23,004 nucleotides of DNA from a virus: the IMG/VR virus record IMGVR_UViG_3300028920_000646, positions 1 to 23,004 of that record; one strand, 5' to 3'. Of this stretch, positions 2,666 through 22,835 are shown piece by piece. Made by a program: the position numbers and the translations under genes. The notes beneath the pieces were generated by a model. That model was not told the DNA's origin and ran no database searches. It saw only the letters and a program-made list of their open reading frames with translations. Within the stretch, counting starts at the first letter, position 1. Each line of letters opens with the position of its first letter.

Positions 2666-2821
2666 TTATTTTTTATCCTTCTTGGAATCTTCTTTTAACT
2701 GTTCGTCAATCAAAGCAATAGCTCCTAACATTCTTTCGATTGTTTTTTGGCCATTGTTGACTTGTTCAGTTATTTTCTTGATATCCTCCAAAAGGCTTTC
2801 TCTTCGTTCTTTTAAGTTCAT
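2666..2821 (-). CDS. Small helical protein, 51 aa
   Basis: ATG at 2821, TAA at 2666. The product begins MNLKERRESLLEDIKKITEQ and ends in a Lys-rich tail (KEDSKKDKK). Heptad-like spacing of Leu, Ile and Val suggests a single amphipathic helix or short coiled coil. The start codon overlaps the stop of the upstream glycosyltransferase gene in an ATGA (2818-2821), a typical translational-coupling arrangement that supports the gene being real. Short coiled-coil proteins of this form are common beside phage tail genes, but I recognise no function. There is no transmembrane segment, so it is not a holin. Confidence 0.6.
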   Translation of the reverse strand: MNLKERRESLLEDIKKITEQVNNGQKTIERMLGAIALIDEQLKEDSKKDKK

Positions 2822-3822
2822 AGAAAATATTGTAAATTATTTCTTACTCTTTCATTATCACGATAAGCTAATGAGTTTAATGCTGATATTCTAGCTAAAT
2901 CTTTCTGACTATAGTGGTAAAAACACATCGATAAAATATCATAAGCCCTTGATTCTATATCTGCTATAGGTTCAAAAGAACCTTTACTAGAACCAAGTTG
3001 TACTGCCCTTAGCATCTCTGGTATAGCTTTTGCGTAATTCTTGTCTTGATAAAAGATATATCCTTTGTAGTAGTGATGTTCTGCTATATCTGAGTTAAGT
3101 ACCTCTATGGCCTTATCTTTTTCTTTTAAAGCATAATGGGCTTGTGCTAAATAGTATCTCCCTAAGTTTTCTTCATCTTTGAAGGTTGATATTTTCAGAT
3201 ACTCCCCCAGAGTATCCTTAGTTTCCTTCCACCTTGCTGCGTCTCTATGTTGTTGAGCCAAATAGAACAATGACCTTGCGTCTTTCTTACCAGTTAAGTG
3301 GCGAACTAGCATCTCATCTCTTTGCTTGTTTCGTATCTTTCTATATTTCCAGTCCTGTACTGTTCTGTCGTGAACTATGTGAAAGTCTAAATATTTGGTC
3401 CAGGTCTTAGCATTCGGGATTGTATGAACGTCATTCTTATAACGAACTGTATTTCTTATAATTCTGTCTGACTGAATCTTGGAGCCACCTTCCATTTCTA
3501 CTGTTACACGAATAGCATCTGTCTTAATCTTACTAAAATCTATCTTGGGAATCTTGGTAACATACTCATGTCCATCTAAGATAAGAATCCAATCACCTTT
3601 TGCTTTTTTAATTCCTTCGTTTCTCGGTGTAGCAAAGCTATCTGACCACTTAAACGTGTGTACCTTACCAAGAGTCTTAGCTATCTCTAATGTTTTATCT
3701 TCACTTGTTTCGTCAACGCCAATGATAACCTCATCCACAAAGTCTTTGACCGAGTCAACCGCCCTTTTAAGGCCAGCTTCCTCGTTCTTAACCATCATTA
3801 CTAAACTAATCATATCCTCCAA
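2818..3822 (-). CDS. GT2-family glycosyltransferase with C-terminal TPR-like repeats
   Basis: The N-terminal GT-A fold begins ISLVMMVKNEEAGLKRAVDS, the usual opening of a GT2/SunS-type enzyme. The sequence IIGVDETSEDKT follows, and LDGHE (about residues 82-86) sits where the DxD metal/nucleotide site normally lies. From about residue 185 to the end are tandem 34-residue TPR-like helical pairs (YYLAQAHYALKEKDKAIEVL; YKGYIFYQDKNYAKAI). GT2-TPR enzymes often glycosylate proteins, with the TPR part binding the acceptor. The gene starts 5 bases after the collagen-like fibre gene, which makes that fibre a plausible substrate (inference). The start is ambiguous: TTG at 3822, or ATG at 3813, which lies only 2 bases after GGAGG. 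The donor sugar cannot be read from sequence. Confidence 0.82.
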   Translation of the reverse strand: MEDMISLVMMVKNEEAGLKRAVDSVKDFVDEVIIGVDETSEDKTLEIAKTLGKVHTFKWSDSFATPRNEGIKKAKGDWILILDGHEYVTKIPKIDFSKIKTDAIRVTVEMEGGSKIQSDRIIRNTVRYKNDVHTIPNAKTWTKYLDFHIVHDRTVQDWKYRKIRNKQRDEMLVRHLTGKKDARSLFYLAQQHRDAARWKETKDTLGEYLKISTFKDEENLGRYYLAQAHYALKEKDKAIEVLNSDIAEHHYYKGYIFYQDKNYAKAIPEMLRAVQLGSSKGSFEPIADIESRAYDILSMCFYHYSQKDLARISALNSLAYRDNERVRNNLQYFL

Positions 3823-3827
3823 TTTGA

Positions 3828-5245
<1,418 letters not shown>

Positions 5246-5249
<4 letters not shown>

Positions 5250-5641
5250 ACGGTATAAAAATATGATACCCCATCCCCATTGGAATTGGTATCAAGATAA
5301 ATTAATGCTAAATCAGATAAGTCGATGCTAATTGTTTCTCCAGCATCTAACACAAATCCATTTGTACTATCAACTGAACTATCGCCAACAAAAATCATTC
5401 CTGTATTAGTATGTTTAGCTTTTATTGTTACAGAGCTACATGGAGTTGAAGCTGCTAATACTTCAGCTGTCCCAGCTGCAGCCACATCCTTCTGCCCGTT
5501 ACCTATAGTATCAGTATTTTTAGCCCAGCTAGAACCAGTCCAATATAAACCACCCCTCATCTTGATATAGGGATAGTTGTCTTTATCAGTAGAATGTATT
5601 TCTAATTCGTGGTCTGTTAAATTGTTGGCTATTTCAACCAT
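5246..5641 (-). CDS. Small virion-associated-type protein, 131 aa
   Basis: ATG at 5641 with AAAGGA nine bases upstream; the TGA overlaps the start of the collagen gene. The first half includes [19 protein letters not shown]. The second half (about residues 65-131) has the pattern [18 protein letters not shown], then [15 protein letters not shown] and [17 protein letters not shown]. This arrangement of a tolerant '[18 protein letters not shown]' loop and a 'GE-I-IDL-DL-IYLD' strand pair recurs in small phage structural proteins found near fibre or decoration genes. It probably forms a small all-beta domain, perhaps the adaptor or base for the adjacent fibre. The structural role is inferred from pattern and position. 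Confidence 0.65.
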
Positions 5642-6098
5642 TTAATATTTTCCTTTTACGTTCCTCCAACTTTCTCTGGGGTAGCATTACGTTTTTCATC
5701 CACTTGTACAATTTCTCCATCTTAGTGATTCCCTTAACATTTTCATCTAGTCCCATACCTCCAGTAATCTTTAATAAAATATCCCTATAAGAATCTATGG
5801 TATTTTCAAAGTCGTTATTAGCAATCTCGCTTAACACAAACTCATCTATGAAGTCAGCATAGTTTCTGTATGATTCTATGTTTTTTACATCATCACCTAA
5901 ACCGAAGTATTCAAAGGAATAAGGTTCTTTCCTTATTTCCCTGTATTGTTCAACGTTGTCTGGTTCAGGAAATGATTTAAGTTCCCAATCCTGTTCTTCG
6001 TGACTACCTGGACCCGATGGTGTACTGCTCTGGGGGTTTTCTATCGGGGTCGTAATCCTTGATGACTGCGTTGACTGCATTGAGCCAGTTTCTTGCAT
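5634..6098 (-). CDS. Hypothetical protein, up to 154 aa, start uncertain
   Basis: The N-terminal 45 residues are Ser/Thr/Pro/Gln-rich and look disordered; the rest is helical and charged, ending [13 protein letters not shown] do not recognise a family. The stop overlaps the next gene by 8 bases, as elsewhere in this operon. The 5' end is the difficulty: the only in-frame ATGs, 6098 and 6080, lie inside the upstream glycosyltransferase gene, giving an overlap of 77-95 bases. Neither has a convincing ribosome-binding site, and no in-frame ATG, GTG or TTG lies just after 6004. Either the overlap is real or initiation uses an unusual codon. The body (about 5634-6000) is well supported as coding because it fills the gap between two coupled genes. 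Confidence 0.6.
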   Translation of the reverse strand: MQETGSMQSTQSSRITTPIENPQSSTPSGPGSHEEQDWELKSFPEPDNVEQYREIRKEPYSFEYFGLGDDVKNIESYRNYADFIDEFVLSEIANNDFENTIDSYRDILLKITGGMGLDENVKGITKMEKLYKWMKNVMLPQRKLEERKRKILNG

Positions 6099-7167
6099 TT
6101 TTTTCTAAATTATATTCTTTCTTAGCCGTGTCGTGTCCGTTCTTACCAAGTTTCTCTATCTTATCCCTGTGCTTGTACAGATATTCCAATTTATCCAGCC
6201 ACTCTTCTTTCTCCATAACAAGGTATCCGTTCCATCCGTCTTTAATCGTGTCTATGTAATGCCCTACCCTGGATGCTATTACTGCATGATATCCAGATGA
6301 CCAATATTCTAATATACGGAGATTTGATTTAGCCCTATTAAAGTTTCTGTCAGTTAGTGGGGCTAAACATACATCTGGTGAGAACTTAGCAATATACTCT
6401 GAATAGTTCTCTGGGCGTATCCAACGCATCTTTTTTATCCTATTCTTATAAGGCTTGTCTTGGAACAAATTGGGTAGTTTACCATACATATAGAAGGTAG
6501 CGTCTTTGTGCTTGGTCATAAACTCATCTATCACACCACTAATCATATAAAGATTCTCATAGTGAGTAGCAGAAGAGCTGAACATAATCCTGAAGTCTTC
6601 GTGTTTTTTCTTTTTAATGAATTTCTTATTCTTAAAGTCTATGGAGTTGGGACAAAGATATGTTGGGGAATAATTTCCATAATACTGTTCCAGGTGGGGA
6701 GTGGTTACGGTATATCCATCAAAAGCACCTAATGATATTTGGTGGATACTCTTAGGGTCTTCTACGCCAATATCGTGTAATCTTTTATCTTTGTAAGATA
6801 TTGAGCCAGGATTCGTGTAAGGAACATCAAATATATAATCATCATTATCCTGTATAATCGGACACTTGTAGTGGTACCTTAAAGCCAAAGCCGTACTGAA
6901 CCTAACACCCGTGTCTTCACGTTGCATTATAATTGCGTCTGGTTGGAACTTGTTTAGTTCTCTGGTTAGGGAAGTAGTTGCTGGAGAATTGCCATCATCA
7001 TCTGGTCTGAAATCATTCCAGGTATTTTTAAGTTTTCGTGTCGGGTGATACGGACTTACAAGGACATCAGCTAATCCAAGTTCTTTTAACTTCATAGCTG
7101 GCTTGTGTAGTCTATAATATGCTACACCGTCTTGTGATGCGATGTAAAAAAATATCTTTGGTTTCAT
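6004..7167 (-). CDS. GT-B fold (GT4/GT1-type) glycosyltransferase
   Basis: A 387-residue protein with a two-lobed GT-B layout. The N-terminal acceptor lobe begins MKPKIFFYIASQDGVAYYRL and contains VSPYHPTRK, DAIIMQREDTG and a Y..PTYLCPNSID linker. The C-terminal donor lobe has FRIMFSSSATHYENL, then FSPDVCLAPLTDRNFNRAKS, followed by LRILEYWSSGYHAVIASRVG and GWNGYLV. The last of these is the Glu-containing donor-binding region of this superfamily. It transfers a sugar from an activated donor, but neither donor nor acceptor can be assigned. The start ATG overlaps the stop of the 2-epimerase gene by 4 bases, so the two are probably co-translated. It has no membrane helix, so it would act in the cytoplasm. 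Confidence 0.85.
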   Translation of the reverse strand: MKPKIFFYIASQDGVAYYRLHKPAMKLKELGLADVLVSPYHPTRKLKNTWNDFRPDDDGNSPATTSLTRELNKFQPDAIIMQREDTGVRFSTALALRYHYKCPIIQDNDDYIFDVPYTNPGSISYKDKRLHDIGVEDPKSIHQISLGAFDGYTVTTPHLEQYYGNYSPTYLCPNSIDFKNKKFIKKKKHEDFRIMFSSSATHYENLYMISGVIDEFMTKHKDATFYMYGKLPNLFQDKPYKNRIKKMRWIRPENYSEYIAKFSPDVCLAPLTDRNFNRAKSNLRILEYWSSGYHAVIASRVGHYIDTIKDGWNGYLVMEKEEWLDKLEYLYKHRDKIEKLGKNGHDTAKKEYNLEKNARNWLNAVNAVIKDYDPDRKPPEQYTIGSR

Positions 7168-8144
7168 ACTAGGTTCTCCATTATCTCTTTATACGGGTTA
7201 TGGTCAGAAGGTAGTTCTGGTACCTCCTTGTGTTTGTAATAAACTGTTGCCTTCTGTATTCTCTCTGCTATTGGGGGGACTAACGTAGCCCAACCTTTAG
7301 CGATAATGTTCATCCACTCTGTTGTGTTTCTGATTATCAAAGAGTGTTTTCCTAACCAGTATGCCTCCCTTTGTATTCCACCAGAGTCTGTTATCACCAT
7401 CCAGGAATTAAATATCTTTTCTAATGTTACTTTACGTTTCTGGGGTTTTACCATCTCTACATTAGCTGGAAGTTTTATCCTGTACTTCTTGATAAGTCTT
7501 CTGGTTCTAGGATGGGCTGGAAAATAAACAGGTCTTCCTGTTAATCCAAGTCCCTTTATAATTTCTTTCAGCTTGTCTTTCTCCATATTCTCCTCACGAT
7601 GGATTGTAGCAAAGATATATTCCTTCCCCTTCTTTATCTTTAACGGTAAAAACTTGCTAAGACTCCAGTATAATGGGTCTCCGATATGATAGGTATTATC
7701 TGCCATACCCTCATTCATTAGGTTCTGTACCGCTAGGTGAGTAGGACAAAACTTCCACGTTGCAAGCCTATCTGTTGTAATTCTAACCACTTCTTCTGGC
7801 ATTGATTTGTCAAAAGAGCGAAGTCCTGCTTCCACATGGCCAAAATCAACTTTCTCTAAGGCAAAAGCCAACGCTCCTGCTAATGTAGAATAAGTATCTC
7901 CATATACTAACCCTATGTCGGGTTTTTCTTTTTTTAATACTTCTCTGAGTTTGTCAATCATCTCCCCAAAGTTTTCTGAGTGAATACCAAGATTATACTT
8001 TGGTTTGAATTTCATTTCCTTGAAATGTTGTGTGGACAAGGCATCATCATAATGCTGACCTGTATTGACGATAACATCTGAGTCTGGCACGACCTTAAAT
8101 ATCTGGGGTCTTGTGCCGATTATTGAAAGTAATTTTCTTTTCAT
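7164..8144 (-). CDS. wecB: UDP-N-acetylglucosamine 2-epimerase family enzyme (WecB/WbpI-like)
   Basis: The family inverts C2 of UDP-GlcNAc (WecB) or of UDP-2,3-diacetamido-glucuronate (WbpI/WlbD), giving the manno sugar. Visible motifs are GTRPQIFKVVP (10-20), NTGQHYDD (27-34), GDT (82-84), HVEAGLRS (103-110), PEEVVRITTDRLA with catalytic-type Glu117, HREEN (182-186) and DSGGIQREA (253-261). At 326 residues it is shorter than the usual roughly 370. Part of the deficit is visible near the N-terminus, where GTRP...P runs almost directly into the beta-strand before NTGQH, so the helix that normally lies there is largely absent. GGAGG stands six bases before the ATG. It sits between two glycosyltransferase genes with 4-base overlaps. 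The exact substrate is unknown. Confidence 0.88.
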   Translation of the reverse strand: MKRKLLSIIGTRPQIFKVVPDSDVIVNTGQHYDDALSTQHFKEMKFKPKYNLGIHSENFGEMIDKLREVLKKEKPDIGLVYGDTYSTLAGALAFALEKVDFGHVEAGLRSFDKSMPEEVVRITTDRLATWKFCPTHLAVQNLMNEGMADNTYHIGDPLYWSLSKFLPLKIKKGKEYIFATIHREENMEKDKLKEIIKGLGLTGRPVYFPAHPRTRRLIKKYRIKLPANVEMVKPQKRKVTLEKIFNSWMVITDSGGIQREAYWLGKHSLIIRNTTEWMNIIAKGWATLVPPIAERIQKATVYYKHKEVPELPSDHNPYKEIMENLV

Positions 8145-8932
8145 AAATTTCCTCCTTTGGGTAAGTTTGACTGTTCCATTTTACCCTTAATAAATCCGTT
8201 GAACCCCTTCCCGAATTTATGTTCCTTCTTAACTAATTTTTTATCTTTTAAGTATTTTTGTATCCACTTGATAGCTGCCTGTCTATTACCGTTTAGCTCA
8301 TTATCATGTGAGAGTGAGTTGTTCAGGAATCTGAAGTATTCATAAAGCCCTTCGTCTAACGCAACATATTTAGCCCCTAACTGATGTAAGAGTATGTGGT
8401 GCATCCAGTCCCAGGCACACTTAGCTTCTTCTGGGAACTTAACCTTCTTCAAGATTTCAGTCTTAGCGAATATTGTTCCTGGTATATACTGCTCTGTATA
8501 GATTCTTTTGGGGTCCCACGGTTGTGCCTTATGATAACGCCTACTTGTTATCATAAAGTCTGGATGTTTTGAAACCGTATAGAGTCCATGATAAACAACA
8601 TCATTATCTCCTATGGCATTTAGGCATTTTTCTATCCTGTCGGGTAAGCTCAAATCATCTGGGTCATGAAACATTACATATTTCCCCCTAGCTTTATTTA
8701 TCCCAGTACGATAAGCATTAACCACCCCCTCATTTGTTGAGAGGTATATTCTTTTTACCCTGGGTTCTTTTGTTATTGTTATGATTTCCTGTGAGTTGTC
8801 CTCTGAAGCGTCATCAACCATAATGAGTTCAAAGTCTCCGAAACTCTGGTCAAATAATGACTGCATTGACTGCGGTAGGGTTGATTGTTTGTTATAGACG
8901 GGACAAACTACTGATACTAATGGTTTCTTCAT
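8141..8932 (-). CDS. GT2-family glycosyltransferase
   Basis: A 263-residue GT-A enzyme. It opens with VSVVCPVYNKQSTLPQSMQS, then has the nucleotide-binding VDDASEDNS (39-47), NEGVVNAYRTGINKARGKY, and HDPDDLSLPDRIEKC (89-103) holding the DxD metal site. The C-terminal part (PGTIFAKTEILKKVKFPEE; WDWMHHILL) forms the acceptor side, with the Asp/His of WDW-MH in the usual position. It is typical of polysaccharide or surface-glycan enzymes and is cytosolic with no membrane segment. It is coupled by 4-base overlaps to both neighbours. The donor and acceptor are not readable. Confidence 0.88.
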   Translation of the reverse strand: MKKPLVSVVCPVYNKQSTLPQSMQSLFDQSFGDFELIMVDDASEDNSQEIITITKEPRVKRIYLSTNEGVVNAYRTGINKARGKYVMFHDPDDLSLPDRIEKCLNAIGDNDVVYHGLYTVSKHPDFMITSRRYHKAQPWDPKRIYTEQYIPGTIFAKTEILKKVKFPEEAKCAWDWMHHILLHQLGAKYVALDEGLYEYFRFLNNSLSHDNELNGNRQAAIKWIQKYLKDKKLVKKEHKFGKGFNGFIKGKMEQSNLPKGGNL

Positions 8933-11163
8933 TTGTTTAGGTCAATTAACATAGCAACCTTGTCTCCCATACCCCAGCGTTTTCTTATATTGAAGTATTT
9001 TGAATATTGATGGTTAAAACAATAATTGCCAAAGGGAGTAAAATCTTTAGGCTCTATTAGTAAGAGTTGCTTACCGACCTTTTTAAGTGCATCAACTGCT
9101 TTTTGTATGTTTTGGGGAGGAACATGCTCCAAGGTTGTGTAGCAGAATAACAAATCAATCTTACCATTTACATGCTTATCAACTTCTTCTACCGAACTAA
9201 CAAAGAAATCTTTCTTGGGAAAGTATTCCTTGCAAATTTCTATCAACCTCTCCGATATGTCAAAGCCAGAATACTCCTTGTCATCAAATAGAGGTGTGAA
9301 TCTTCCATTACCGCAACCAACATCCAATACTGAGTCAAAACTAAGTGATTGTATTATGCCCCGTAGCTTATCTTTCTTAACCTTGTCTGTTTGGGCTTGC
9401 TTATCCCATGAATCTGCCCTTTTCTCCCAGTATCGCTTCTCATCATACTCACAAAGTTGGCTAATCTTTGCTCTATACTCGTCAGCATCCAGCCATTTCC
9501 TGTAATGTTTAGCACCTTTAGTGTTTAATGGCTTTTTAAGGGTCTTGTATATGGCTTTTTTCATCTCTATCAGTACGTCTTTGACCATTAAATCCTTTTT
9601 AACCAACGGAAGCATGTCAAAATGCTCTGCATATGGCATTTTTATGGTTGTTAAGGCATTTCTACCAGCCCCAATCCACTCTGCTACGCTAATTGGGAGT
9701 CCATCGTGCTTTGTGAACCTGATAATTGCACCAGTTTCCTTGATTATCTCTCCAACACCGTTAGTTTTACCCCAAATCTTGAAGTTTGTGGCTTTATGTG
9801 GCGGTTGTAGGGTGTCATTTCCGAAGAAATGGAAATCTACATCCTTCATCATGTGGACTAAGCCCTTTTCTTCCTTACTTCCAGTAAAGAATTTCTCAAA
9901 ATAGAAGTCCCCATTATCTTCTGGGAGATAAATTGCGATAGCTTTCTTCTTCGGCAGGGGTTCTACATCATACCACTTCTTAGGTGGGAATGGCACAACC
10001 TCTGCATCTATCCCATAGGCTTTGAGTTCTTTCTGTATTGCTGGGATTTCACATAAAACAGCTTCGCATGACTTTAACCATGCTCTAACCTGTGCAATCT
10101 GGTCCATTGTCATCTGTCTAAATAGAAGTAAATCAGACCCTATAAAGTGTATAATCTTCTTAGCTTGAGACATGGGAAATATTCCATTCCATTCTCCTGC
10201 TGCTTTTAAGGCTGCAATCTTTGGCATAAACGATGGGGACATGAATATTGACCTGAAAAACTCAAAATTATAAAAGAATCCACCTACAACGTAGATAGTT
10301 TCATAGTTATGTGGTTTCATTGGTGGGTATTCACGATAGTCAGCATCTAATACTTCTGCTACCCCTTTACCATGTAATGGTGCCCAGTTAGAAGCAGTAA
10401 CACAAACTTTGGCTTCTGGTATCCCATGTAACGCTTTAATCTGGTTTATCCTAGCCATCCAGTTCTTAGACGAATCAAATGATAGTCCCCCTGGGTGTGG
10501 CATAGTAGTCTCAAAGAATGCTGAGGTAAAGTATTTCCCCTTAGCCCCGTAATCATGAACTACCGATAACCAAAAGTCCCAGTCTTGTAAACTCTTGACT
10601 GCTGGGTTCCAAAGACCATCTTTTAAGCCTACCTTTTCTGCTGCCGCCCAATAATCTTTAGCCCTTATTGGGAACGAACCATCTATGTAATTCTGTGTCT
10701 TAAGGACATGGGGATTAAAAGGCTCTGACAGATAAGGAGCAGTAACCAGTCTTCCACCCAACCATGTGGGTTTGTTTATTTTGTTATCAACGAACTTATA
10801 ACCTCCGTAGATAAAAGCACAATCTGGGTTGTCGTGTAGCATATTCATCCATACTCTTAGGAGTCCAGGATTCAGGAAAGAATCAGCTGGCAAGAATGAA
10901 TACACGTCTCCAGTTGCTATCTTCGCCCCTTCGTTACGAGCGACACAAGCACCTTTATTCTTTTTGAAACGAATGACTTTAATTTCTTTATTTTTTTCAT
11001 ATTTTCTTAAGATTTTTTCTGTATTATCTTTAGAGCCATCATCAATTATAATCAACTCTTTCTTAGGATAATCTTGGTCTAAGAAAGTTTTGATATGAAG
11101 CTCCAAAGTATCCCCATCATTGTAAGATGGAGTAATTATAGAAATCCTCTGTTTATTATTCAT
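8929..11163 (-). CDS. Three-domain glycosyltransferase (GT2 + GT-B-like) - SAM methyltransferase fusion
   Basis: 744 residues. Domain 1 (about 1-250) is GT2: ISIITPSYNDGDTLELHIK, IIDDGSKDNT (39-48), KGACVARNEGA and LPADSFLNPG, where PADS takes the DxD place. Domain 2 (about 285-575) looks like a GT-B-type module: WNGIFPMSQAKKIIHFIGSD, CEIPAIQKELKAYGIDAEVV and RFTKHDGLPISVAEWIGAGR. Domain 3 (about 590-744) is a class I methyltransferase with motif I VLDVGCGNGRFTP (612-624), GFDIS, and CYTTLEHVPP. A protein that adds two sugars and caps or modifies one by methylation is a reasonable model (inference). AGGAGG lies 6-7 bases before the ATG, inside the end of the HNH gene. It is not a frameshifted pair: the frame is continuous throughout. 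Confidence 0.85.
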   Translation of the reverse strand: MNNKQRISIITPSYNDGDTLELHIKTFLDQDYPKKELIIIDDGSKDNTEKILRKYEKNKEIKVIRFKKNKGACVARNEGAKIATGDVYSFLPADSFLNPGLLRVWMNMLHDNPDCAFIYGGYKFVDNKINKPTWLGGRLVTAPYLSEPFNPHVLKTQNYIDGSFPIRAKDYWAAAEKVGLKDGLWNPAVKSLQDWDFWLSVVHDYGAKGKYFTSAFFETTMPHPGGLSFDSSKNWMARINQIKALHGIPEAKVCVTASNWAPLHGKGVAEVLDADYREYPPMKPHNYETIYVVGGFFYNFEFFRSIFMSPSFMPKIAALKAAGEWNGIFPMSQAKKIIHFIGSDLLLFRQMTMDQIAQVRAWLKSCEAVLCEIPAIQKELKAYGIDAEVVPFPPKKWYDVEPLPKKKAIAIYLPEDNGDFYFEKFFTGSKEEKGLVHMMKDVDFHFFGNDTLQPPHKATNFKIWGKTNGVGEIIKETGAIIRFTKHDGLPISVAEWIGAGRNALTTIKMPYAEHFDMLPLVKKDLMVKDVLIEMKKAIYKTLKKPLNTKGAKHYRKWLDADEYRAKISQLCEYDEKRYWEKRADSWDKQAQTDKVKKDKLRGIIQSLSFDSVLDVGCGNGRFTPLFDDKEYSGFDISERLIEICKEYFPKKDFFVSSVEEVDKHVNGKIDLLFCYTTLEHVPPQNIQKAVDALKKVGKQLLLIEPKDFTPFGNYCFNHQYSKYFNIRKRWGMGDKVAMLIDLNK

Positions 11164-11743
11164 TGTTTTCCTCCTTTTTATATTTATTGATAAATACTGG
11201 TAACCATATTGGCTTAATAAACATATGTGCTAAAGCCTTAAAATCTTCTTCATTGAATAAATCAGATTTTATACGATTACAATACATACAAGCTAATACA
11301 ATATTATCTATTTGATATGGCTTATTATTATCTACCCTATCTATAGTTAATCTGCTAGTATATTCTTTATTAAAATGTTTGTTTAATATTTCTATTTCAG
11401 TTTCTGGTATTCCACAATAATGACATACTTTATCTTCTTTATTATACCAATTAAGAAAATCTTTTTGTTTTAATGGAAACTCACGTTTTTTCTTTCTACA
11501 ATTTTCTTTTAAAAGATGGTAAATATATTTAGGACTACCAACCCAATTTATCCAAGACTTCTTTGCTGACAACTTAACTTTTTCTGGATTATTCTTTTGC
11601 CATTTCTTAACATTCTTTTTAATTTTATCTTTATTTTTTTCATAATATTCATGCTGATTATCTTTACATTTCTGTGTTTTTCTATAACGCTTATTTCTTA
11701 TATTATTTAATTCTTTCTCAGATATTTTTTTTCTATCCTCCAT
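11156..11743 (-). CDS. HNH endonuclease (homing-type), 195 aa
   Basis: The start is ATG at 11743, preceded by AGAGG at seven bases; an upstream ATG at 11776 in the same frame lacks such a site. The N-terminal two thirds is Lys-rich and probably binds DNA (YYEKNKDKIKKNVKKW). The C-terminal HNH zinc-finger nuclease has CHYCG (107-111), the catalytic strand SRLTIDRVDN (130-139), DNIVLACMYCN (146-156) and KSD. The enzyme would cut DNA, probably as a free-standing homing endonuclease. The gene is visibly more A/T-rich than its neighbours and interrupts a sugar operon, which suggests horizontal insertion. Even so, it overlaps both neighbours (11 and 8 bases) and supplies the ribosome-binding site for the next gene. 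Confidence 0.85.
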   Translation of the reverse strand: MEDRKKISEKELNNIRNKRYRKTQKCKDNQHEYYEKNKDKIKKNVKKWQKNNPEKVKLSAKKSWINWVGSPKYIYHLLKENCRKKKREFPLKQKDFLNWYNKEDKVCHYCGIPETEIEILNKHFNKEYTSRLTIDRVDNNKPYQIDNIVLACMYCNRIKSDLFNEEDFKALAHMFIKPIWLPVFINKYKKEENNE

Positions 11744-12686
11744 ATTGTTTCCTCTCTTTGTTAATAAATTCTGCAACCCTTTTTACTTGGCTTTCTTTCA
11801 TATCTGCCCAGAATGGTATTGAAATCATATGGGCAGCAAACTCTTCAGCACAAAAGAATTTATGTTTTGTGTAAAAAGCTGGTTGCTTATGTATTGGGTT
11901 AAAATGTTTAGACACCTGTATTCCCTCTTGTTTCGCTCTCCTATAGAATGACGCAAAATCGTCTATCCAGACTTGGTAGATGTATCTGCTCCAGTTGTCG
12001 AGTTCGTGTGGGATGAGGTATTTGTCGTAGATTTCTTTAACCTTGTCTCTTTTTTTGTTTGTGTAATCCAGTCTTCGAATCTGGTTGAGAGCAAGAGCAG
12101 CAGTAGTGTCAGCCATATAAAAGTTCCAGCCAGGGGTATGAACAGTAAATTCGAATGTGTTATTTCCATAAACTCTTCCATTATTTACTAAAGTTTTCAA
12201 GAAGTTATATTGTTCCTTAGAATTGGTAGTAATCATTCCACCTTTACCAGTAGCGAGAAGTTTTGTGGCGTGGAACGAAAACACCCAGATAGCTTCTTCA
12301 TTTTCTTTTGTAATATTTCTATCAATAACATGAGCGGAATCCATAATCACCCCTTTATCTGTTTCAATCTTATAAAAACTGCCAGCCACCCATCCATCAT
12401 AAAATTCAATTTCTACTCCCATTAGCTTGGCCACATTTGCCATTGATACATAAGTAGCCGTAGGCATACTGAGTTTTGATGGCTTTAACAAGGTTAAGAC
12501 AGAAATGAAACCAGAAGTACAGCTATCAACAGCGACAGCGTATTTAGAGCCAACATAATCTGCAAACTCTTTTTCTAATTTTGCCACTTCTGTTCCTGTG
12601 GCTAGGTTCCCCGAAAGAAGTTGCTTACTTACAGCCTTGGCATCTTCTTTGGTAATTGGGGGTCTTAATAATGGTATTCTTTCCAT
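11733..12686 (-). CDS. wlbC: DegT/DnrJ/EryC1-type PLP-dependent sugar aminotransferase (WbpE/WlbC-like)
   Basis: The start is ATG at 12686, with AGGAGG seven bases upstream; a longer reading from 12710 is not favoured. The 317-residue protein begins MERIPLLRPPITKEDAKAVS, the normal family opening. GNLATGTEVAKLEKEFADYV follows. It has VAVDSCTSGF in the PLP-phosphate region, MDSAH with Asp116 for the ring nitrogen, and FSFHATKLLATGKGG (136-150) with Lys142 as the Schiff-base lysine. The family transfers an amino group from glutamate to a keto nucleotide sugar. Beside a WlbA-like oxidoreductase and an acetyltransferase, amination of the 3-keto sugar is the expected step (inference). It is somewhat shorter than the usual 360-390 residues; the core motifs are intact. 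Confidence 0.85.
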   Translation of the reverse strand: MERIPLLRPPITKEDAKAVSKQLLSGNLATGTEVAKLEKEFADYVGSKYAVAVDSCTSGFISVLTLLKPSKLSMPTATYVSMANVAKLMGVEIEFYDGWVAGSFYKIETDKGVIMDSAHVIDRNITKENEEAIWVFSFHATKLLATGKGGMITTNSKEQYNFLKTLVNNGRVYGNNTFEFTVHTPGWNFYMADTTAALALNQIRRLDYTNKKRDKVKEIYDKYLIPHELDNWSRYIYQVWIDDFASFYRRAKQEGIQVSKHFNPIHKQPAFYTKHKFFCAEEFAAHMISIPFWADMKESQVKRVAEFINKERKQYGG

Positions 12687-12807
12687 ATTTTTTCCTCCTT
12701 TTAATTGCACCTGCTGGGCAGATGTCTATATAATTCTTAGGTTTGTCTTTATCACAAGCCCCACAATCAACGCAGAGCTTTTTGTCGATATAATATTCTA
12801 TTGCCAT
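12625..12807 (-). CDS. Ferredoxin-like mini-protein, 60 aa
   Basis: It starts MAIEYYIDKKLCVDCGAC and has Cys12-x2-Cys15-x2-Cys18-x11-Cys30-Pro, followed by AGAI. This is the pattern of one [4Fe-4S] ferredoxin site, with about eight extra residues before the CP. A further CxxC (56, 59) lies at the extreme C-terminus, in the stretch that overlaps the start of the aminotransferase gene by 62 bases. The start overlaps the acetyltransferase stop by 10 bases. No good ribosome-binding site is visible, so coupling is likely. It fills a gap that would otherwise be about 110 bases. A redox role for a neighbouring sugar enzyme is possible but unproven, and the last 20 residues may be a by-product of overlap. 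Confidence 0.6.
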   Translation of the reverse strand: MAIEYYIDKKLCVDCGACDKDKPKNYIDICPAGAIKRRKKYGKNTIIKTPNYQRRCQGCK

Positions 12808-13238
12808 CTATTGTTTTTTGTTTTGAGTTTCCTTTGTACTCTGGCGGGGTTCCCATAAACAAGTACTCCAGGGGGAACATCCTTGGTTACTACAGAACCA
12901 GCACCAATAGCAGCATAATCACCAATAGTAATACCGCATACGATAGTGCTGTTAGCTCCGATTGAGACGCCTTTTCCAACTTTGGTTTTAACAAACTCCC
13001 CACCTTTATTCTCATAAGCTCTTGGGGTGAGGTCATTCGTAAAACAAACATGCGGGCCGATAAAAACGTCATCTCCGATTTCCACGCCATTATAAATTTC
13101 CGTATTATTTTGGATGTTACAATTTTTTCCAATAACACCCCTATCGAATACAATAACATTGTGTCCTATTTTAGTTCCTTCTCCAATTTTTGCCCCTTGT
13201 ATGACAAGATATTGGAATGCTTGTTGTGGGTCACTCAT
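12798..13238 (-). CDS. wlbB: Left-handed beta-helix (hexapeptide) acetyltransferase, WbpD/WlbB-like
   Basis: 146 residues made almost entirely of hexapeptide repeats with Ile/Val every sixth position (IQGAKIGEGTKIGHNVIV; IGKNCNIQNNTEIYNGVEIG). The loop VFIGPHVCFTNDLTPRAYE (58-76) is characteristic of the WlbB/WbpD branch. The end (TIGDYAAIGAGSVVTKDVPP, then VYGNPARV) is the classical coil and acetyl-CoA-binding terminus. The WlbB/WbpD branch N-acetylates UDP-2-acetamido-3-amino-glucuronate using acetyl-CoA, and such enzymes are cytosolic trimers. It lies next to the WlbA-like gene with an 8-base overlap, the same partnership as in bacterial O-antigen clusters. It is shorter than bacterial WlbB (about 190), lacking some N-terminal coils. 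The substrate is inferred from context. Confidence 0.85.
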   Translation of the reverse strand: MSDPQQAFQYLVIQGAKIGEGTKIGHNVIVFDRGVIGKNCNIQNNTEIYNGVEIGDDVFIGPHVCFTNDLTPRAYENKGGEFVKTKVGKGVSIGANSTIVCGITIGDYAAIGAGSVVTKDVPPGVLVYGNPARVQRKLKTKNNRWQ

Positions 13239-14073
13239 GGTCTCTAATTTTAGCTACTAAATCTATAGAGGGGAGTGTGTCTTCCACCCAGAACCCACGC
13301 CCAGCTAATATCTCTTCGTAAACTTTGGTGTGTAGTTCTGTAAAACCCTCCGTAAAATCTATTTCTTCCCCATTAATTTCCATGAATCTTTTAGGCGTGT
13401 CCTCATCTATCGAGAGTTTCCATTGGACTTCAGCCTTATCCAGTATCAATGAGCCTTCCATGGTTCTTCCATATTTATTAACAGACCACATTTTTACTTC
13501 ACCAAACTTCCAGATAAGCATATCAAAGAAATGCACACCAATATTCATGGCTAAACCGCCTGATAATTCATCCCTCGCTTTCCAAGAAACGTCATACCAG
13601 TTGCCCCGTGGGGTGGAATAGTCTAATTTTATTTTATTATGTTCTTTTACTTTTATGTTTTTTATTTTGTCATGGAGCCTTAACTGAAGAACGGGATATA
13701 CCCTCTGGCCATACTCGGATTCCATTTCCATAATGGGTGGAATATTCCAAGAGTTTAAGACTAGGGGCTTTTCACAAATAACATTAGCACCGCACCTAAG
13801 GCCAAGGCGTATATGAGAATCGTGGAGATAATTCGGAGTACATACTGTAACAAAATCCACAGGCTTTCCTTCTCTTTTGAGCCTTTCAAGATGCCTTTCA
13901 AATCTTTCAATTTCCGTGAACACGTCTGCATTAGGGAAATACGAATCCAAAATACCCAACGAGTCGTGTTTATCCACCGCTGCAATAAGCTCATTCCCCG
14001 TTTCCCTTATTGCTTTTAAATGTTTGGGGGCGACATACCCTCCAGCACCAATTAGTGCAAATTTTTTCGCCAT
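13231..14073 (-). CDS. wlbA: Gfo/Idh/MocA oxidoreductase, WlbA/WbpB-like UDP-sugar 3-dehydrogenase
   Basis: The 280-residue protein starts MAKKFALIGAGGYVAPKHLK with the GxGGYVAP dinucleotide-binding turn. It then has SLGILDSYFPNADVFTE and ERFERHLERLKREGK, VCTPNYLHDSHI (77-88), CEKPLVLNSWN with Glu101-Lys102-Pro103, and GGLAMNIGVHFFD (172-184) with the expected catalytic His181. The end contains GFTELHTKVYEEILAGRG. This combination is diagnostic of the WlbA/WbpB group rather than of Gfo/Idh enzymes in general. These enzymes oxidise C3 of UDP-2-acetamido-2-deoxy-glucuronate with NAD. It is about 30 residues shorter than bacterial versions, mainly in the substrate-binding part. It overlaps the upstream SDR gene by 22 bases and the acetyltransferase gene by 8. 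Confidence 0.88.
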   Translation of the reverse strand: MAKKFALIGAGGYVAPKHLKAIRETGNELIAAVDKHDSLGILDSYFPNADVFTEIERFERHLERLKREGKPVDFVTVCTPNYLHDSHIRLGLRCGANVICEKPLVLNSWNIPPIMEMESEYGQRVYPVLQLRLHDKIKNIKVKEHNKIKLDYSTPRGNWYDVSWKARDELSGGLAMNIGVHFFDMLIWKFGEVKMWSVNKYGRTMEGSLILDKAEVQWKLSIDEDTPKRFMEINGEEIDFTEGFTELHTKVYEEILAGRGFWVEDTLPSIDLVAKIRDHE

Positions 14074-14948
14074 TCGATATATTCAAATAAATTTTTCTCA
14101 AAGTCTGTTTCTATCTTTAACCCAAGTTTTTGGGCTTTGGTCGTATCCGCACAGAGCCGTTGGACTTCCCCTGGTCTTGGACTTGTATAGATTGGTTTAG
14201 GGCATCCAGTATATTTTTGTACCAGAGTTGCGATTTCATTAACTGAGACCGTGGTACCTGAACCAACGTTAATCGGCTTTCCTTTGACTCCCTTTTCGGC
14301 AATAAGTTCGTATCCTCTAACAGCATCTGTAACCCACATGTAATCTCTTTCCTGTTTTCCAGAGCCGAATATAATAGGGGATTTACCATGTAATGCACGG
14401 TTGACGAATATGGCGATGACTCCTCCATAAGAATCAAAGCGTTGCCAAGTCCCAAAGGTATTAAAGTTCCTAAGTATCCGTACATCCACGCCATAGGTAT
14501 CGGCATAAGATTTACAGAGCCTGTCTCCTGCGACTTTCGTTGCTGCGTAAACTGACTGACAGTTGAGTGGGTGTTCTTCTGACATTTTTTCGGTTTGTGA
14601 TGTACCATAGACTTCACTTGTTGAAGCGAACACCATAGGTTTCTCGTATTTCCTGCACGCCTCTAATAAATTAGTAGTTCCTTTAACGTTAATATCCACC
14701 GTCTCTTGTGGGTATTTATTTCCATAATCAATATTTATCATAGCAGCTAAATGATAGACTTCATCAACTTGGCTCACTAAAAGGTCAACCAACCGTTCAT
14801 CACGAACATCACCAATAACAAGGTTTTTCATTCGTCTTGTTGACCATTGAAGGTTATCAAGCCCTACAACTTCATATCCTTTGTTTTCTAAATATTCCTG
14901 TAGGTGCGAGGCAATAAACCCTGCCGCACCCGTTATTAGAACTCTCAT
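14052..14948 (-). CDS. Extended SDR nucleotide-sugar epimerase/dehydratase
   Basis: A 298-residue extended short-chain dehydrogenase. It has TGAAGFIASHL (6-16) for NAD binding, GDVRD (46-50), HLAAM (66-70), FASTSEVYG (107-115), and the catalytic SVYAATK (Tyr134, Lys138). RNFNTFGTWQRFDSYGGVI and RDYMWVTDAVRGYELI form the substrate side. The closest groups are UDP-sugar 4-epimerases, UDP-glucuronate decarboxylases and NDP-hexose 4,6-dehydratases, and sequence alone does not separate them. AGGA lies eight bases before the ATG. It is the first gene of the sugar island, directly downstream of the major capsid gene, and overlaps the WlbA-like gene by 22 bases. It is close to the family's usual length. 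Confidence 0.87.
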   Translation of the reverse strand: MRVLITGAAGFIASHLQEYLENKGYEVVGLDNLQWSTRRMKNLVIGDVRDERLVDLLVSQVDEVYHLAAMINIDYGNKYPQETVDINVKGTTNLLEACRKYEKPMVFASTSEVYGTSQTEKMSEEHPLNCQSVYAATKVAGDRLCKSYADTYGVDVRILRNFNTFGTWQRFDSYGGVIAIFVNRALHGKSPIIFGSGKQERDYMWVTDAVRGYELIAEKGVKGKPINVGSGTTVSVNEIATLVQKYTGCPKPIYTSPRPGEVQRLCADTTKAQKLGLKIETDFEKNLFEYIEWRKNLH

Positions 14949-21343: not shown

Positions 21344-21415
21344 TTAACAGTTACCTTCTCCACGACCAGTTTTTGGTCCTTCACCATTTGGACCTGTTCC
21401 ATCTCCATTAGGCAT
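21344..21415 (-). CDS. 23-residue micropeptide with a GDGTGP...TGRG motif
   Basis: ATG at 21415, one base after the small-terminase stop; TAA at 21344. The peptide reads MPNGDGTGPNGEGPKTGRG followed by EGNC. This is essentially the N-terminal motif of DUF5320-type proteins (MP--DGTGP-G-GP-TGRG-G-C), which normally continue for another 60-100 residues. Here the motif is the entire protein, ending right after its Cys. The function of the motif is unknown to me. A frameshift that truncated a longer protein is unlikely, because the next gene begins six bases later. It has no separate ribosome-binding site, so reinitiation from the upstream gene is likely. Confidence 0.6.
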   Translation of the reverse strand: MPNGDGTGPNGEGPKTGRGEGNC

Positions 21416-21823: not shown

Positions 21824-21833
21824 AATTTCTTAT

Positions 21834-21961
21834 GAACTAAGGTTTGATTGGATGTTTTGTTGTTTTAGATAACCTCCTCTTATGGACTGCTAATAGCAGC
21901 AACGGGTCTGCTAGGGTAGCAGATACATCCAAGCCCTACTTAAAGAACCAAACCTCAACTC
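21834..21961 (-). ncRNA. Candidate structured RNA element upstream of terS
   Basis: On the minus strand a 14-pair closing stem forms between 21961-21948 (GAGUUGAGGUUUGG) and 21847-21834 (UCAAACCUUAGUUC). It uses Watson-Crick pairs and five G-U pairs, which would all be A-C mismatches on the plus strand, so the minus strand is the likely sense. Inside lies a second 7-bp helix (UUGGAUG 21932-21926 with CAUCCAA 21854-21848) after a 15-base one-sided internal loop. Two near-identical hairpins are nested within: UCUGCUA-CCC-UAGCAGA (21923-21907) and CUGCU-AUU-AGCAG (21899-21887). The 5' strand covers the stop codon of the dehydrogenase-like gene; the 3' strand ends about ten bases before the terS ribosome-binding site. 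I do not recognise a known class. Alternatives are a TerS-binding (pac/cos) site or a leader switch. Confidence 0.6.
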
Positions 21962-22620
21962 CAAAGACCCTTAAACGTCATCTTTGGCAAATACTTTGTA
22001 TTCTGGACCACACAGTGTCCCCCAATATCCCCTTTAGGCGGATAAAGCACGGGTCTGACCACATTTGGCATTCCAAGCCTTGTATAGCCATCATTGTAGG
22101 AAACATTGAAATCTGTCATCACTCTCTCAAAATTAAGCCCATACTTGTCACACAGCTCCTTAGCGTACCTGTGGAACTCTATACAAACCCCATAGTAGGT
22201 CGTATCCAATAACTTCCCCAGTTCTGTGGTCCTAGAGTCATTTAACAGCACTACGCTCATTCCAGCTTCTGACAGGTGCTCAGCCACCTTTTGACCCAGC
22301 TCCTTATCATCAGCTCCCACGAACTTGGTAAAAACTCCAATCCCCTCATCTAAATTGGGATGCACGCCCCTAATTGGGCTGTGAACTGCATTAGGAATCT
22401 TTTGGGTTGTCCCTACAGGCACCGTACTGTGAATAATCTTAATCCCAGGCTCTGCAGCCACTATCTCCTCAAACCCCTCTTGGTAGGGAATACAGACATG
22501 CAAAAACTTCACTTCAGGTAAACTAAAGTTCTCAAATTTCTTATCTTTTATGTGGGCATTTGGGAAAAAAGTCTGGATTGCTTCTCCAACCTCTCCCAGG
22601 CCCAGGATTCCATCCTCCAT
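21955..22620 (-). CDS. Short UDP-sugar 6-dehydrogenase-like protein
   Basis: 221 residues from ATG 22620. It has the Rossmann start ILGLGEVGEAIQTFF, then FLHVCIPYQEGF, IIHSTVPVGTTQKIP (the STVPVGTT signature), and SRTTELGKLLDTTYYGVCIE with FHRYAKELCDKYG. It ends with KGDIGGHCVVQNTKYL, containing the GGHC catalytic-type cysteine. These match the NAD-binding and central domains of UDP-glucose/UDP-GlcNAc dehydrogenases, which oxidise C6 to a uronic acid. The family is normally about 430 residues: the C-terminal UDP-binding domain is absent and the central helices are compressed. It may be a minimal viral enzyme or have another substrate. The start is unclear: TTG 22629 and ATG 22620 lack a ribosome-binding site, while GGAGG (22614-22618) precedes only ATC and CTG codons. 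Confidence 0.72.
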   Translation of the reverse strand: MEDGILGLGEVGEAIQTFFPNAHIKDKKFENFSLPEVKFLHVCIPYQEGFEEIVAAEPGIKIIHSTVPVGTTQKIPNAVHSPIRGVHPNLDEGIGVFTKFVGADDKELGQKVAEHLSEAGMSVVLLNDSRTTELGKLLDTTYYGVCIEFHRYAKELCDKYGLNFERVMTDFNVSYNDGYTRLGMPNVVRPVLYPPKGDIGGHCVVQNTKYLPKMTFKGLWS

Positions 22621-22743
22621 ATTTGTCAAGTTTGCTAATCTTAGCCCAAATCTTTAAAGTCCACCCGATGGGAAAAGTAGTTTTAGGCTATTTTTTATGT
22701 TATAATATATGCTTTATTTAAGGGCTCTTTGGTATTCCTGTAG

Positions 22744-22757
22744 TTTATAGGCTATAA
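22744..22757. repeat. Near-palindrome TTTATAGGCTATAA, copy 1
   Basis: A near-perfect inverted repeat centred on GGC. The same element occurs in inverted orientation at 22836-22850, and a degraded copy, TTTTAGGCTATTTTT, lies at 22681-22695. Copy 1 overlaps a plus-strand TATAAT. Repeated palindromes in a control region suggest operators for a dimeric regulator, or phage-specific promoter elements. Confidence 0.5.
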
Positions 22758-22835
22758 TATAGTTAATCATCCCACCCCCGCCCCCTATATGGTATGGGGT
22801 GCCTTTCCTATATATACAAATTGCCACCTATCCCC

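Follow-up and report, generated by a model that had tools for sequence, protein, structure and literature searches.

We identified, on the minus strand of an uncultured phage genome, a 128-nt RNA element that is almost certainly a conserved RNA structure, with two members known: the copy described here and a 143-nt homologue in a related phage (L003). The genome is a linear IMG/VR phage record of 23,004 bases, which was analyzed at its full length and is hereafter called the window. The element constitutes a candidate new class of structured RNA with comparative support from these two members. A first-pass annotation of the window had proposed a folded RNA of no known class at this place, selected as an RNA on the minus strand rather than as a DNA palindrome. 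These proposals hold: the fold beats shuffled sequences (z = –3.7), compensatory changes are found in L003, and Rfam 15 at the gathering threshold gave no family at either copy.

Folding energy and anatomy of the element

We computed the minimum free energy (MFE) of the 128 nt of the minus strand and compared it with that of shuffled sequences, a check that the first-pass annotation had called for. The observed value (–39.8 kcal/mol) was better than the shuffle mean of –27.5 (SD 3.3; z = –3.73), and 1 of 200 shuffles equaled it. The plus strand of the element folded more weakly (z = –2.07). However, coding stretches of the same phages also attain z values of –4 to –4.5. Folding energy by itself is therefore weak proof, and the case for the element rests on compensatory changes.

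The features of the element are listed in Table 1. The closing stem (P1) and the second stem (P2) are both present as annotated, with different sizes: P1 has 15 pairs (four of them G-U) in the conserved fold rather than 14 (five G-U), and P2 has 8 pairs in the MFE fold, 6 of them conserved, rather than 7. The two annotated hairpins built on CTGCTA...TAGCAG both exist in the window, where a two-hairpin fold and a nested fold are near-isoenergetic (mean pair probability ~0.4 versus 0.54). The proposed UAGGG/CCCUA loop pairing comprises 5 bp in the window and at most 3 bp in L003. A UUCUU × AAGAG pseudoknot is possible in both copies, and its letters are invariant.

Table 1. Coordinates of the RNA element, its parts and the neighboring genes in the window
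Feature	Position	Strand	Remarks
Whole structured RNA element	21834..21961	–	128 nt; homologue L003:2466-2608
P1 closing stem, 5΄ strand	21947..21961	–	15 pairs with 21834-21848; holds upstream ORF stop TGA 21957-21955
P1 closing stem, 3΄ strand	21834..21848	–	pairs with 21947-21961
UUCUUUAAGUAGGG segment, near-invariant	21934..21948	–	weak 4-bp hairpin in two-sequence consensus fold; GGUUCUUUAA identical in L003
P2 5΄ strand GGAUGU	21925..21930	–	pairs with 21850-21855; L003, GGUCAU/GUGACC
P2 3΄ strand ACAUCC	21850..21855	–	pairs with 21925-21930
Hairpin A UCUGCUA-CCC-UAGCAGA	21907..21923	–	3-nt loop; L003, ACCCAUA-CCU-UGUGGGU
Hairpin B CUGCU-AUU-AGCAG	21887..21899	–	L003, GCC-GUAA-GGC at the same place, unrelated letters
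Conserved segment UCC(n)UAAGAGGnGGUUA	21870..21886	–	possible 2-bp CC/GG hairpin C; AGGAGG 21878-21873 inside
terS, 130 aa	21417..21809	–	AUU start 21809-21807 (most simply); Shine-Dalgarno AAGGA 21823-21819; phrog_309; downstream neighbor, outside the RNA
NDP-sugar dehydrogenase-like ORF (DH)	21955..22629	–	start uncertain; weak UDPG_MGDP_dh and NDP-sugDHase matches; upstream neighbor, stop in P1

Compensatory changes between the two copies

A stretch upstream of terL in L003 shares the junction words GGTTCTTTAA and TAAGAGGnGGTTA with the window. Folded alone, this copy (z = –3.96) again forms P1, P2 and hairpin A, and the junction sequences, GGUUCUUUAA(n)UAGG and UCCn(U)UAAGAGGnGGUUA, differ hardly at all between the two phages. 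With the stems aligned (n = 2), the fold common to the two copies has 30 base pairs, and all 30 are standard in both. Fifteen of these pairs differ between the window and L003, 12 on both sides (five in P1, three in P2 and four in hairpin A) and three on one side, including one further pair of P1; compensatory changes, which the first-pass annotation had told us to look for in related phages, thus occur. Two G-U pairs of P1 stay G-U in both copies. Controls in which the partners were slid by 1–3 columns yielded 0–1 double changes and 31–46% paired cells, and none of 500 shuffles matched the observed pairing and compensation values.

RNAalifold, applied to the two unedited sequences, returned the same stems together with a weak hairpin in UUCUUUAAnUAGGR; its input alignment had been fitted to our covariance model R1 and was biased towards that fold. 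The unpaired loops of the R1 seed had been slightly edited by hand, and the pair counts, like the RNAalifold result, were obtained from unedited sequences. To guard against circularity, we built a second covariance model whose only inputs were the window copy and the centroid fold predicted for it. Run over 159 kb of DNA from related phages, this model found a single further site, L003:2466–2608 (E = 0.028, E-values from these covariance models being rough), a site that nhmmer, using a sequence-only profile of the same window sequence, did not report at E 10.

Because pairs are kept through compensatory changes and the window-only model recovers L003, chance folding now explains the data poorly. 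A non-functional spacer would be consistent with the z values near –4 of coding windows in these phages, but the 12 double changes among pairs that are all retained, the near-invariant junction segments and the blind recovery of the L003 copy leave it hardly credible. The most variable parts of the element are its stems and the most constant are its junction segments, a pattern that, to judge from the two sequences, would be expected of a tertiary fold or docking site.

Inverted repeats close to terS and terL might also mark a site that functions as DNA, such as a cos/pac site or a recombination or replication structure. We regard this as very improbable, since the two retained G-U pairs of P1 would not pair on the plus strand, which also folds less well, and a G-rich element near position 22800, common to relatives without the RNA, is a better cos/pac candidate. 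This G-rich stretch (CACCCCATACCATATAGGGGGCGGGGGTG, ~22770–22802, minus strand) lies beside repeated TATATTATA...ATAAA words (22689–22761); both have counterparts near terS in L003, L004, L005 and L125, and together they are a candidate cos/pac or late promoter region.

Gene context in the two phages

The two copies are both located in the packaging operon, 0.6–0.9 kb upstream of terL and ahead of ~20 kb of co-oriented genes, in non-equivalent gaps between unrelated genes. The order is DH, element and terS in the window, and a short ORF, the element and a basic 38-aa ORF in L003, where terS is located ~900 nt upstream of the element. Since the L003 copy comes after terS and before another gene, the element is not tied to terS. 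It is also not tied to the sugar cluster of these phages, since relatives without the RNA possess the cluster. No terminator was found after the element on the minus strand, so that a longer operon transcript probably includes it.

Several neighboring features were observed. The ORF directly after the element in L003 (2627–2743; VPNAKKKKQKKVRKHRRKK...) is extremely basic and has no Pfam match, and the equivalent gap of L125 contains neither the RNA nor the basic ORF. Directly after terS in the window (21344–21415, minus strand) is a 23-residue Gly-rich peptide, MPNGDGTGPNGEGPKTGRGEGNC, which may resemble DUF5320; short PG.PTT peptides occur in the same operon of L002, L003 and L125. The sugar cluster (2818–14948, minus strand) is a nucleotide-sugar/glycosyltransferase cluster located after the gene for the major head protein, with a collagen-like tail fiber gene in its midst. 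It encodes a LegB-like 4,6-dehydratase, Gfo/Idh, a DegT aminotransferase, a GT2-methyltransferase fusion, GT2, a UDP-GlcNAc 2-epimerase and GT1, and is mostly kept in four relatives (L260, L263, L264 and L265).

The first-pass annotation had described the element as bridging the DH stop codon and the terS ribosome-binding site. The stop codon does lie inside P1. However, AGGAGG is not the ribosome-binding site of terS, since no ATG, GTG or TTG occurs between it and terS, whose own AAGGA and AUU lie outside the RNA. Upstream, the terS frame is closed by a stop at 21824, and the M-starts of terS in L003, L004 and L125 align with its first residues, IPAPRKDS; for these reasons, the start is most simply read as the AUU behind AAGGA. 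AUU is a very rare start codon, and a one-base assembly error at this position is a possible alternative.

These observations bear on the annotated idea that the element has alternative folds and serves as a switch, read here as a terS-specific riboswitch or autoregulatory leader. The position just upstream of terS and the near-equal energies of the two folds would suit such a switch, although both apply to the window alone. The L003 element precedes an unrelated ORF, and the sequences of its two hairpins are unrelated, hairpin A dominating, so that the interchangeable arms, and with them the switch, are not conserved. An expression platform for terS is absent, as the Shine-Dalgarno sequence and start are beyond P1. 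We therefore do not interpret the element as a terS switch, a reading that is improbable.

In both copies, the preceding stop codon falls within the P1 5΄ strand and the next start lies 17–24 nt past P1 (window, TGA 21957–55 and start 21809; L003, TAA 2465–67 and GTG 2627). This identical geometry despite different genes, along with downstream starts that are weak in both (AUU in the window; GUG without a clear Shine-Dalgarno sequence in L003), would be explained if P1 folding shortened the gap between cistrons and thereby coupled or insulated the translation of the neighbors. Such spacing, however, arises in compact phage genomes regardless, P1 would be covered and melted by a ribosome terminating there, and the conservation of the junction is left unexplained; such a translational role seems distinctly unlikely.

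Distribution of the element

A TerL search in IMG/VR provided five close relatives (84, 72, 66, 66 and 66% identity), and the TerL alignment supplied two more (L122 and L125). The sequence of the nearest phage, L002, ends inside terS; a structured stretch in it (226–365, z = –4.2) reads as a coding ORF and is not homologous. Three relatives (L004, L005 and L125) have a TerL that is 64–66% identical and the same long operon, and model R1 did not find the element in their scanned parts or in the other fragments of the clade. This implies that its function is dispensable or replaced in those three phages.

Among the matches listed, model R1 recovered only the window and L003 from 89 + 12 + 80 loci, 18 records and 380 genomes of one phylum. 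This phylum is that of L127, a Saccharibacteria metagenome-assembled genome, and the element was not found in the 380 genomes. Of the matches sampled for the DH protein, the best (56% identity) comes from a genome of this phylum, in which 9 of the 380 genomes have a match, providing a weak hint of the host; IMG/VR searches with the DH and TerS proteins as baits yielded no relatives.

Candidates from searches of IMG/VR with DNA patterns of the conserved blocks were rejected: the sites in L117 and L118 fall in coding sequence, L130–L141 gave no model match, and L173, the only one above noise among the 80 pattern loci listed, is antisense within a long ORF. A 15-base pattern of hairpin A produced 35 matches, all in unrelated stretches, and blastn against phages and plasmids gave no convincing match to the element. 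Further members may exist beyond the two found.

Proposed mode of action

We tentatively favor action in cis on the whole transcript, in the manner of put or EAR, because the operon is retained while the genes flanking the element differ on either side. By analogy with those systems, the element would ride on the long late transcript as a self-contained module and would act on that transcript as a whole rather than switch terS translation. The invariant junction would most likely contact the elongating polymerase or another general factor, and the outcome could be processive action of the put/EAR kind or protection of the transcript. Terminator-like sites were not in excess in the operon stretch scanned; nothing obvious there needs antitermination, which, like the lack of the element in close relatives that have the long operon, counts against whole-transcript action.

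Ranked next, as a close rival though rather unlikely in itself, is a noncoding RNA cut from the operon transcript that acts in trans, in packaging, host takeover or as a decoy, with the flush ends held by P1 as its termini. Such an RNA would be expected to be closed by a long terminal stem, to sit between genes like a gene, to occur sporadically at non-equivalent sites and to have invariant junction segments, as the element does. It has no terminator of its own, however, no processing site was identified, and Rfam showed no similarity to any trans-acting RNA. There is a very slight chance that the element is an RNA of the packaging machinery, or another trans structural RNA with a pRNA-like function, released from the terminase operon transcript of a TerS/TerL phage outside the phi29-like group. 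The translational bridge is placed third, behind whole-transcript action and the trans-acting RNA.

The two known sites occupy packaging operons of related phages, both uncultured, without being equivalent in position. Either outcome, a cis module or a packaging RNA, would be valuable if true, and the shape, the two-copy alignment and the model recipe can now be used for larger metagenome searches.

Comparison with known structured RNAs

A permissive Rfam scan of the window copy gave only lincRNA-p21_2 (13.6 bits, E = 2.7), and that of the L003 copy gave nothing. ARAGORN reported no tRNA or tmRNA, and the group I intron model RF00028 had no match at the element. Elsewhere, in L004, the gene for the major head protein is split by a small group I intron (L004:7077–7256; RF00028, 79.7 bits); the two parts of this gene match at 6446–7102 and 7289–7621 with only ~186 nt between them.

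The phi29 prohead RNA (pRNA) contains a junction closed by paired ends, as does the element. The two are also of similar size (120–174 nt for pRNA) and encoded by tailed phages, the link to packaging being one of gene position only for the element (PMC11476376). An RNA role in DNA packaging has been described only from phi29-like phages, to which pRNA is described as unique (PMC11476376). Packaging of the phi29 type differs from that of the TerS/TerL phage analyzed here, whose TerL is of the phrog_2/Terminase_6 type with a separate terS; together with the absence of an Rfam match, this sets the element apart from pRNA.

The manA and wcaG motifs are structured, phage-carried RNAs near sugar-metabolism genes (PMC2864571). 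Those motifs precede sugar genes, whereas here a dehydrogenase lies upstream and is absent beside the L003 copy, and there is no Rfam match. The EAR/epsC motif, for which antitermination has been reported (PMC2864571), is likewise a structured RNA at a long operon; it belongs to Bacillus exopolysaccharide genes, and the element had no match in the Rfam scan. An EAR-like tie to the sugar gene cluster was dropped, as relatives without the element carry the same cluster.

Few phage RNA modules, HK022 put being the example, work on an entire transcript unaided by a protein. On its own, the put RNA exerts its effect on RNA polymerase across 10 kb or more; it consists of two stem-loops of ~70 nt (PMC9378689). 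It is found in a lambdoid phage near early promoters, whereas the element is 128–143 nt long and closed by P1 and P2 with inner hairpins; by sequence and structure, and with no Rfam match, it belongs to neither put nor EAR. The likeness to put lies in the proposed action only: put is a phage RNA acting in cis, with no protein partner, close to the start of a long transcription unit (PMC9378689), and the element would be another.
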